Assembly (NCBI GenBank): GCA_013203475.1
Contig: JABMNV010000106.1
Span: forward strand, 1-59,957
Length of the DNA: 59,957 bases
Reading direction: 5' to 3'
From: Acidobacteriota bacterium
GTDB taxonomy: Bacteria; Acidobacteriota; Vicinamibacteria; Vicinamibacterales; SCN-69-37
Position numbers and translations under genes: made by a program. Below are positions 23,987-47,963 of the stretch, piece after piece (position 1 is the first letter of the stretch; every line of letters begins with the position of its first letter). The notes beneath the pieces were generated by a model that searched no databases, was not told the DNA's origin, and worked only from the letters and a program-made list of their open reading frames with translations.

Positions 23987-24541
23987 ATGCGTACGAATTT
24001 TTCTATTTTGGGGCGGTCACGTGTCCCGCAGTCATTGGTCGCGCTGGCTGGCCTGTTCACGATTTCGTGTGCACCTGCGGCTGATTCGACGGCTGTGGAG
24101 CAGGCGGCGCAGGCGGCTGCACCAACCCCGCCTCCCGCGACTGGATTTCAGGTGGCGCCAGGGCTCCCGCCCCTCCCCACCGCTGGCCTGGCGGCCGCAC
24201 CTCGGTCCGTAGAGACCGTCCGTGCGGTCTACGAATTCGCGGCCAGTCACCCTGAGGTGCTCGACTACGTGCCCTGCTTTTGTGGTTGTGAAAGTGCGGG
24301 CCACAAGAGCAACACCCATTGTTTTGTCGGCGCTCGCAATTCAGAGGGTACCGTCACGCAGTGGGATTACCACGGACTCACTTGAGGGATCTGTATTGAC
24401 GTCGCGCGTGACGCGATGCAAATGTACAACGGTGGTACCTCGGTGAAAGACATTCGATCGTCCATCGACAAGAAATACGCGGGTGCGATGACCCGCACGC
24501 CGACACCGGCACCGCCCGACGGTGGCGGCGATCGGCACTAG
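23987..24541 (+). CDS. PCYCGC-motif secreted protein, candidate selenoprotein (in-frame TGA 24383-24385 read as Sec)
   Basis: HPEVLDYVPCFCGCESAGHKSNTHCFVGARNSEGTVTQWDYHGLT-[TGA]-GICIDVARDAMQMYNGGTSVKDIRSSIDKKYAGAMTRTPTPAPPDGGGDRH*; family position of TGA is normally Cys of CxxC. Confidence 0.85.
24400..24418 (+). promoter_or_regulatory. candidate bacterial SECIS hairpin
   Basis: CGTCGCG-CGTGA-CGCGATG: 7-bp stem (one GU), 5-nt loop with G at position 2; loop begins 21 nt after the TGA. Confidence 0.7.
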
Positions 24542-24548
24542 GACTCTC

Positions 24549-26078
24549 GTGGCCAGCGGTCGCCACCCCTCGCTTCCGGACGATGCGTTTTTTCATCTGT
24601 TCGAGGGACTGCGCGAGGGCGTCTACATCGGGTTGATCGGGGCCGACTCCTCCGCAACGTTCGCCGCCAATCCCCACCTCCGGTTGATCCTGGGGTGGGC
24701 CGAAGACGTGGCCACCAGCGAGGTTCGGCCATTTGAAGCCGACCGTTTTGTCGACCCGATCGCACGCGACAGCTTCGTCTCACTGCTCAAGCGGGACGGC
24801 GCCGTTCACGATCACCTGCTCCGCCTCAGACGGGTCGACGGCACGGCGGTGTGGATCGAAGTCACGGCCCGGGCCGGACCGCTCGCTGATTCGCTTCGTG
24901 TGGAAGCCGTGATGCGCGACGTCACCGAGCGGAAGAAGCTCGAGGACCAGGCCCGGGAGGTCTTCCACCAACTCTCACAGGCAGAAAAGCTTGCGGCCCT
25001 GGGACAGACGATGTCCGGCGTCGCGCATGAACTCAATAACCCTTTGGCCACGGTGTTGGCCTGCGCTGAGCGCCTGGCCGGACGCCAACTCGACGACCAG
25101 ACATCACGCGACCTGGACGCGATTCATAACGCCGCCGAACGCGCAGCCCGAATCGTACGAAACCTTCAGACGTTTGCCCGCAAACGGCATACGACACGCA
25201 CGATGGTAGACATCAATCACGTGATGCGCGACACGCTCGCCCTGCGTGCGTATGAACAGCAAGTCGCCAATGTCGTGATCGTTGAGGCCCTGGCGTCGGC
25301 ATTGCCACAGGTGTTTGCCGACCCGCATCAAATTCAGCAAGTACTCCTCAACCTCGTCATCAACGCCGAACACGCGATGCTTGGCGCACACGGTCGTGGC
25401 TTGATGATGCTGCGCTCGTGGCATGAACCTGAGCGCGACGCGGTGCTGCTCGAAGTGAGCGATGACGGCCCGGGTATTCCCGAGGACGTACAGGCCAAGA
25501 TCTTTGATCCGTTCTTTACAACAAAGGCCGTCGGTAAGGGCACCGGGCTTGGGCTGACGGTCGCCTACGCCATCGCTCACGAGCACGGTGGCCGGATCAG
25601 CGTGTCGTCCGTTCCGGGCGGTGGCGCGTCCTTCGTGCTCGAACTGCCGTCAGGTGGCACGCACGTTCGGGCGCCTGAGTCGTCGTCGGCGCCTCCAGCC
25701 GCGGAAGTGCCCGTGGGAACGCGGGCCCTGGTCGTGGAAGACGAACAGGCGCTGGGTGAGGCCGTGGCAGACACGCTCAGGGACGCCGGGTTCGAAGTGG
25801 ATCGTGCGGCCGATGGCGAAGAGGCGATCGCGCACACACAAACGCGCGCCTACGACGTGATCATTTGTGACCTGAAGATGCCGCGCGTGGACGGCATGGA
25901 ATTTTTTGATCATCTCGCGGCCACGGCGCCTGCGCTGACGAAGCGCTTGATCTTCGTGACGGGCGATGTGGCGGGAACCGAAGCGGAAGCGTTTCTTGAA
26001 CGCAGCGGCTGCCATTGGCTGGCCAAGCCGTTCCGGTTACGCGACGTCGTACGTCTGGCGCGTGAAGTGATCGCGTAG
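24549..26078 (+). CDS. hybrid sensor histidine kinase (PAS-HisKA-HATPase) with C-terminal receiver domain
   Basis: GVAHELNNPLATVLACAERL H-box, DDGPGIPEDVQAKIFDPFFTTK, GTGLGLTVAY, VIICDLKMPRVDGMEF; GTG start 24549 or 24522. Confidence 0.93.
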   Translation: MASGRHPSLPDDAFFHLFEGLREGVYIGLIGADSSATFAANPHLRLILGWAEDVATSEVRPFEADRFVDPIARDSFVSLLKRDGAVHDHLLRLRRVDGTAVWIEVTARAGPLADSLRVEAVMRDVTERKKLEDQAREVFHQLSQAEKLAALGQTMSGVAHELNNPLATVLACAERLAGRQLDDQTSRDLDAIHNAAERAARIVRNLQTFARKRHTTRTMVDINHVMRDTLALRAYEQQVANVVIVEALASALPQVFADPHQIQQVLLNLVINAEHAMLGAHGRGLMMLRSWHEPERDAVLLEVSDDGPGIPEDVQAKIFDPFFTTKAVGKGTGLGLTVAYAIAHEHGGRISVSSVPGGGASFVLELPSGGTHVRAPESSSAPPAAEVPVGTRALVVEDEQALGEAVADTLRDAGFEVDRAADGEEAIAHTQTRAYDVIICDLKMPRVDGMEFFDHLAATAPALTKRLIFVTGDVAGTEAEAFLERSGCHWLAKPFRLRDVVRLAREVIA

Positions 26079-26096: not shown

Positions 26097-26846
26097 CTAG
26101 GCGACGGCCTGAGACTCGAAGGCCAGCGCCGGCATCTTCGCGGGCATCAGGGCTGTGCGCAAGCGAGCCACCGCACGGGCATGCAGTTGTGACACGCGCG
26201 ATTCGTTCACGCCAATATCCTTCCCAATCTGCTTCATCGTCGCTTCACGGAAGTAGTAGAGGCTGATAATCCGGCGCTCGCGGGCCGGCAGGGACGCCAA
26301 GGCCGCTCGGACACGCGCACGTGATTCGTTGTCTTCGTATTCCCGATCAGGCGCGGGGGGTTCGCTCGGCACGAGCACTGCGGGCAACGTGGAGCTGTTC
26401 ACCGAATCGTGGTTGGCCATCGGCGAGGTCGACTCGATCGTGCTGATTCGAAGGATCGTGCGTTCGAGTCGGGACTCATCGGCCCCAACTCGCTTGGCCA
26501 GGTCGGAAAGCGTCGGCTCGGCGCCGAGCTCGCGGCGAAGCGATTCGCGGGCGGCCTCAAGCTCACGGCGTTGGCGGCGCACGCCGCGAGGCCAGGCGTC
26601 ACGGCGCAGGGCGTCGATCATGGCACCGCGCACCCGGCGCTCAGCAAACGTCTCAAACTTGATTCCCCGAGCCTCGTCAAAACGGTGCGCCGCGTCCATA
26701 AGGCCAATCACGCCATCCTGGACTAGGTCACTCACGTCGACGGAGTTGGGCATCGTGGACGCCATGCGTCGGGCGAGTGATTCGACGAACGGTAGTGTGG
26801 CGACGACCCGGTCGTGCTGGTGATTGGCAAGTGGCGAACGCTGCAT
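26097..26846 (-). CDS. FliA/WhiG-type RNA polymerase sigma factor
   Basis: VDVSDLVQDGVIGLMDAAHRFDEARGIKFETFAERRVRGAMIDALRRDAWPR; LPARERRIISLYYFREATMKQIGKDIGVNESRVSQLHARAVARLR. Confidence 0.92.
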   Translation of the reverse strand: MQRSPLANHQHDRVVATLPFVESLARRMASTMPNSVDVSDLVQDGVIGLMDAAHRFDEARGIKFETFAERRVRGAMIDALRRDAWPRGVRRQRRELEAARESLRRELGAEPTLSDLAKRVGADESRLERTILRISTIESTSPMANHDSVNSSTLPAVLVPSEPPAPDREYEDNESRARVRAALASLPARERRIISLYYFREATMKQIGKDIGVNESRVSQLHARAVARLRTALMPAKMPALAFESQAVA

Positions 26847-46919: not shown

Positions 46920-47963
46920 CTAGGTTAAACGGACAAGGACTCCTGCTGATTCTCGAACGGTCACCACCCCAACGTGGGCCGCAGGCAGCCCGGAGGCTAC
47001 CAATTGAGCGAGAAAAGCCGGAGCCTCCGTGGGAGAAACCGTGAACAGGAGGCCACCAGACGTCTGAGGGTCCATGCAGAGCAAGGCCAGTTCGGGCCGA
47101 ACCGTCGTCTCGACTCTGGTCCGGTCAAAGTGTTTCAGGTTTGACCGCCCCCCGCACGGGAGGTTTTCTGCGGCCAACTCGGCCGCCCCAGTCAAGAGAG
47201 GCAAGTGGTTGGTATTGAACACTAACGTGGTTTGACTGGCAGCGGCGACCTCGGTCGCGTGTCCTGAGAGCCCGAAACCGGTGATATCGGTACAGGCGCC
47301 GATACTACCTGCTGGCAGAGCTCTCGCGATTCGAGCGGCCTCGTTGTTCATGCTGACCATGGATGTGATGGCGCTCGCCAGTTGTTCAGGCGTCGAGCGC
47401 TCAAAGCGGGTGGCTCGCACAATCACGCCGGTTCCCAGGGGCTTCGTTAGAATCAGGACGTCGCCAACCCTCGCTCCGGCATTGGAAAAAATGCGGTCTG
47501 GATGGACATGCCCAGTGACTGAGTAGCCGAATTTGACCTCGGGGTCGGTCACCGTGTGGCCACCGAGCAGCGCGACCCCAGCCTCCCGGAGTTTGTCTGA
47601 CCCGCCCCTGAAGATCTCGCGGATGACCTCGGGCGTTGGGCCATCTTTTGGAAACGCCGCGATCGCCAGGGCGGTTCTGGGCTCGCCGCCCATGGCATAG
47701 ACATCACTGAGAGCATTGGCAGCGGCGATCTGCCCGAAGACGTAGGGGTCATCCACAATCGGAGTGAAGAAGTCGACGGTCTGCACTAGTGCCGAATCCG
47801 CTGACCACCGAAACACTCCAGCGTCGTCAGCGGTCTGGAAGTCGATGAGAACGCGGTCATTGACAGTGTCGGAACGCAGGCCGGACATGATTTGTTCGAG
47901 TTCGGCTGCCTGAAACTTGCTGGCGCATCCCGCGCAGTCGGCGTAGTCGGTGAGTTTCTTCAT
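46920..47963 (-). CDS. selD: selenophosphate synthetase SelD
   Basis: DCAGCASK active-site region, VDFFTPIVDDPYVFGQIAAANALSDVYAMGG, LGGHTVTDPEVKFGYSVTG, MDPQTSGGLLF. Confidence 0.97.
   Translation of the reverse strand: MKKLTDYADCAGCASKFQAAELEQIMSGLRSDTVNDRVLIDFQTADDAGVFRWSADSALVQTVDFFTPIVDDPYVFGQIAAANALSDVYAMGGEPRTALAIAAFPKDGPTPEVIREIFRGGSDKLREAGVALLGGHTVTDPEVKFGYSVTGHVHPDRIFSNAGARVGDVLILTKPLGTGVIVRATRFERSTPEQLASAITSMVSMNNEAARIARALPAGSIGACTDITGFGLSGHATEVAAASQTTLVFNTNHLPLLTGAAELAAENLPCGGRSNLKHFDRTRVETTVRPELALLCMDPQTSGGLLFTVSPTEAPAFLAQLVASGLPAAHVGVVTVRESAGVLVRLT

Follow-up and report, generated by a model that had tools for sequence, protein, structure and literature searches.

Does the in-frame TGA of a PCYCGC-type gene from a Vicinamibacterales bacterium end the protein, or is it read through, and if so, as which residue? 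The gene lies in a window of 59,957 nucleotides (the whole stretch of DNA analysed; positions 1 to 59,957 of contig JABMNV010000106.1, assembly GCA_013203475.1) from an Acidobacteriota MAG of 264 contigs with Vicinamibacterales affinity. An earlier note, made from the letters alone, had proposed that this TGA is recoded as selenocysteine (Sec). From the comparisons below, we conclude that UGA is almost certainly read as Sec here, and that the gene product is a selenoprotein belonging to the known OS_HP4/CYCXC (PF13798) family. We favour Sec because dozens of related bacteria share the stop at one Cys column together with a near-identical RNA hairpin. The features concerned are collected in Table 1.

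Table 1. Features of the window that bear on the reading of the internal TGA
Feature	Position	Strand	Basis or remark
Predicted PCYCGC-family (PF13798) selenoprotein gene, 184 residues via internal TGA	23987..24541	+	Frame and profile match
CFCGC motif of the PCYCGC signature (Cys 97, 99, 101)	24275..24289	+	C-x-C-x-C invariant in alignments
In-frame TGA, predicted Sec (residue 133) that opens the UxxC (U-G-I-C)	24383..24385	+	Column comparison
Predicted SECIS hairpin, stem GUCGCG/CGCGAU, loop CGUGA	24401..24417	+	Pairing, frozen codons, compensatory changes in locus L133
Hybrid histidine kinase (HisKA, HATPase_c, receiver)	24549..26078	+	Begins with GTG, 7 nt past the read-through TAG
Sigma factor	26097..26846	-	Beyond the histidine kinase
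selD, selenophosphate synthetase, Cys form (CAGCASK)	46920..47963	-	TIGR00476, 345 bits

The read-through frame and its relatives

The frame comprises 132 codons, the TGA, and a further 51 sense codons before a TAG at 24539-24541, as the earlier note had read it; standard ORF callers terminate the gene at the TGA, which the note had also anticipated. With the TGA taken as Cys, residues 76-176 match PF13798 with an E-value of 5.1e-31 (108.1 bits, against a curated cut-off of 25 bits). The PCYCGC label therefore stands at the level of the family, whilst the motif itself differs trivially, being PCFCGC in the window copy. When the genome was searched as DNA, a single PF13798 match was found (102 bits), with one TGA inside it. 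Sequence conservation on both sides of the TGA, claimed previously, is borne out by this match spanning the codon and by purifying selection downstream: over 38 codons past the TGA, dN/dS between the window and its congener is ~0.2 (0.148/0.742), and the degraded downstream sequence that the note had named as evidence against recoding was not seen.

Matches to PF13798 were obtained in 82 of 396 genomes in a search of the phylum and in 93 of 162 in a search of the order. A TGA at exactly the column of the window's TGA occurs in 39 of the 93 PF13798-bearing genomes of the order; the other 54 have Cys only. The distinct forms extracted from the order fall into a single aligned column, with 38 TGA forms (39 loci, window included) and 39 Cys forms (TGC in 32, TGT in 7). 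The note had equated the TGA with the leading Cys of the C-terminal CxxC and had suggested looking for homologues with Cys or TGA there; both kinds are numerous, and the (U/C)xxC column is the same in every TGA form extracted from the order. Stops within the matched PF13798 stretches, in both searches, were always TGA and never TAA or TAG. Among more distant Acidobacteriota, loci L025 and L044-L047 also have TGA at the (U/C)xxC column; at distant locus L030 the TGA that was counted is just beyond the domain and looks like a normal stop. In a second public collection, partly overlapping the first, an alignment query found 317 relatives, and the same TGA/Cys pattern recurred in separately assembled, named records from other studies; a scan of a contig collection with a single-protein query found no relatives. 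The relatives that have names are Acidobacteriota, several of them labelled Vicinamibacterales. Three records (L157, L171 and L189) have titles naming Cyanobacteria or Acidimicrobiia, yet their PCYCGC loci match genomes of the window's order, and these MAGs look mislabelled.

A hairpin downstream of the TGA

The published bacterial SECIS model calls for a stem of 4-16 bp, a loop of 3-9 nt with a G in position 1 or 2, a distance of 16-37 nt from the UGA, and an MFE <= -7.5 (PMC13188914). The window hairpin agrees with this model in stem length (6 bp), loop size and loop G (5 nt, CGUGA), distance (21 nt) and energy (MFE -7.6, only just inside the limit), and the SECIS check that the earlier note had recommended thus comes out in favour of recoding. 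It differs from the general model in that its primary sequence is near-invariant across an order. Folded alone, the window stretch showed no excess stability relative to shuffles (z -0.27), and it was the comparison of codons that was decisive; in the best fold of a longer stretch, the window copy is paired somewhat differently. No Rfam family matched anywhere in the window.

A hairpin of 6 bp, its loop starting 21 nt past the TGA, is present in all 38 distinct TGA forms. Thirty-six share an identical 17 nt, GUCGCG-CGUGA-CGCGAU (GTCGCGCGTGACGCGAT), beginning 15 nt after the TGA. Of the two others, L128 has a single loop change (CGGGA), and the divergent form L133 has GTCACC-CGTGA-GGTGAT, in which two pairs are altered on both sides and the loop is retained; the protein there reads VTREVI in place of VARDAM. 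As the hairpin is almost sequence-invariant, the covariation rests on this one divergent member. The stem is complete, with all six pairs, in 38/38 TGA forms versus 3/39 Cys forms, and in 16% of random synonymous recodings of VARDAM. Nearly every TGA form encodes V-A-R-D-A as GTC GCG CGT GAC GCG. In Cys forms the codons are not frozen, being GTC/GTG/GTT at V, GCG/GCC/GCT/GCA at A and CGC/CGT/CGA/CGG at R. Correspondingly, pairwise synonymous identity among TGA forms is 0.989 in the hairpin codons versus 0.516 downstream, in codons 12-28 of the same genes; among Cys forms, the values are 0.454 at the equivalent codons versus 0.545. On these comparative grounds, we assign the element as a bacterial SECIS. 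The distant TGA forms L044-L047 have a hairpin of the type CAAGGAG-GUU-CUCCUUG, 18 nt past the TGA and common to four genera.

Selenocysteine machinery and the reading of the TGA

The genes that the earlier note had said to look for, selA, selB and selC, are all present in the same genome, in addition to selD: selA scores 531 bits, selB 314 bits, and tRNA-Sec 66 bits, with anticodon UCA (ARAGORN). A second tRNA-Sec match, on contig C160, was rejected since ARAGORN identifies it as tRNA-Ser. Across the order, selA was found in 36 of the 39 TGA genomes versus 34 of the 54 Cys-only genomes (Fisher p = 0.0009, a value that overstates significance because the genomes are related and not independent). 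The three TGA genomes in which selA was not detected (G400, G483 and G501) are draft MAGs with estimated completeness of 90, 81 and 74%; selB was not detected in TGA genome G277, nor tRNA-Sec in TGA genome G253. Within the window's own family, the window genome (G000) and G309 combine TGA with selA; G446-G449 have Cys, with no selA found.

In the mechanism we propose, SelA would make Sec on tRNA-Sec, with SelD, encoded in the window, supplying the selenium donor. The UGA would then be decoded as Sec by SelB carrying Sec-tRNA-Sec, directed by the GUCGCG-CGUGA-CGCGAU hairpin that starts 15 nt downstream. The earlier inference of recoding draws support from the column-wide TGA/Cys pattern, the sel genes, the SECIS hairpin and the selection downstream.

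Other readings of the codon fare poorly. Standard ORF calling does end the gene at the TGA, as it would if this were a real stop in a recent nonsense mutant or in a protein minus its C-terminal half; however, 38 distinct TGA forms from several families of the order are all open downstream and all carry the hairpin, and with dN/dS at about 0.2 beyond the codon, we consider termination very improbable. UGA is reassigned in some bacteria, so that one might entertain insertion of Trp or Gly, or read-through by a near-cognate tRNA, but every other form has Cys in this column, and the genome has tRNA-Sec and selA/B/D with a SECIS hairpin downstream of the codon. Moreover, the congener's copy itself terminates at a TGA, so UGA still serves as a stop there; insertion of another residue is, if anything, even less credible than termination. 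Whilst a MAG of 264 contigs could contain errors, the same TGA is found in the congener G309 and in many separately assembled records from other studies, and an assembly or sequencing error from TGC or TGT has a negligible chance of being the explanation.

The selD genes of several relatives (L136-L139, L141 and L146) have a TGA where selD of the window has Cys (CAGUASK versus CAGCASK). In L136, L138, L139 and L146, the TGA is closely followed by a strong hairpin of the type GCTCGCC-GCG-GGCGAGC. These hairpins are without the CGUGA loop, which is therefore not common to all SECIS elements of these genomes. A second selD in the window's own genome (L147, on G000:C104) also has a TGA (STCGUAAK), followed by an apparent frame-shift, which could point to misassembly or to a contig from a contaminant.

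Family membership, evolution and possible function

The gene belongs to a family already listed as a selenoprotein family, and the earlier guess that the family was undescribed does not hold. Two lists of selenoproteins, both citing Zhang and Gladyshev 2007, include 'CYCXC family protein (hypothetical protein OS_HP4), PF13798, UxxC' (PMC13188914) and 'OS_HP4, UxxC' (PMC9312934); both reviews credit OS_HP4 to the 2007 Olavius symbiont study. NCBIfam model NF041379 is named 'CYCXC family (seleno)protein' (OS_HP4). As the family is already catalogued, what the window form adds to the known selenoproteins is a new subgroup within it, and a well-supported one. A literature search, with subscription papers mostly outside its coverage, found no description of the family in Vicinamibacterales.

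The window protein scores 74.8 bits (E 4.4e-21) against NF041379, below the equivalog cut-off of 90 bits, so that the score does not make it a member; 81 bits are reached both by a Cys form from the order and by a member from Bacillota. We accordingly place the window protein in a sister subgroup of the NF041379 equivalog, whose cut-off is passed by the distant TGA forms L044 and L045 (101.7 and 94.8 bits). The window protein is predicted to carry, as UxxC in place of its C-terminal CxxC, the single Sec that characterizes OS_HP4/CYCXC, and it shares with NF041379 the Pfam family and the CxCxC signature. It differs in having PCFCGC versus PCYCYC, a longer segment between motifs than in L044 and L045, and its own hairpin sequence in place of the CAAGGAG-GUU-CUCCUUG of L044. 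The Bacillota PCYCGC lipoproteins (PF13798) have the same domain and conserved cysteines but, in all loci seen (L221, L226-L232), Cys at the Sec column. What is new here is a Vicinamibacterales lineage that the curated cut-off fails to capture (74.8 versus 90 bits) and the frozen SECIS; the latter is the strongest new observation, and novelty overall is modest.

With the Sec column and the hairpin codons excluded from tree building, the Sec/Cys labels need at least 8 changes, 2 of them forced by well-supported branches, the tree being weakly resolved. Since the Sec forms of the order have, with very few exceptions, one hairpin sequence, ancestral Sec with repeated loss would be the simplest reading. 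Tentatively, the SECIS of the subgroup may be a lineage-specific element whose sequence is recognised in addition to its structure; about six codons would have been frozen in this way. Sec may also be the original state in the order, replaced repeatedly by Cys, in some cases with loss of sel genes. In the order, no fewer than 39 genomes carry a form of the gene that scores under the curated cut-off and at whose TGA ORF calling stops. The near-invariant hairpin, absent from Cys homologues in sister genomes, offers a clean natural test of how SelB reads a SECIS, and the same contrast is a natural test case for Sec and Cys replacing one another.

By eye, the window protein has a putative lipobox at its N-terminus (...LFTISC), and the relatives have either lipobox-like sequences or a single-helix membrane anchor. 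The CxCxC, a His, a Cys and the (U/C)xxC are invariant in the alignments. The product is most likely exported and anchored in the membrane, by a lipid or an N-terminal helix, and is a putative thiol/selenol redox protein. Our best inference is that it works outside the cytoplasm, where the exposed selenol of UxxC, together with the CxCxC, His and Cys that never vary, would take part in thiol-disulfide or metal-thiolate redox chemistry.

With Sec replaced by Cys, AlphaFold2 gave a confident model (pLDDT 92.6, pTM 0.86), which had no significant structural match among PDB and viral models; no solved homologue was found by sequence. The first and fourth structural matches are CcmH domains (2hl7, 2kw0), and HHalign aligns the tail 'G.S..I......Y', as might be expected of a CcmH-like thiol reductase whose C-terminal CxxC and helix pair are related to CcmH. 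The Foldseek E-values of 1.5 and 5.8 are not significant, however, and the HHalign probability is 3.7%, with a score of 20.7 versus 18.7 for the best of 20 shuffles; neither profile nor fold places the protein with CcmH, and we consider the relationship unlikely. Periplasmic handling of copper or another metal by the CxCxC-His-Cys-UxxC set is possible, although we would not favour it: the thiol set is invariant and the gene of G515 (L149) sits directly after CusB- and CusA-like RND efflux genes, but that link is seen at one locus only, a histidine kinase-like ORF comes next in most relatives examined, and neighbours of the Bacillota PCYCGC genes show no functional theme.

An ORF similar to the kinase (LFE..GVYIG, by eye) adjoins the 3' side of the gene in G041, G253, G277, G077 and G397. 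The order of PCYCGC gene, hybrid histidine kinase-like ORF and opposite-strand sigma-factor-like gene recurs in several relatives (L049-L052 and L150).
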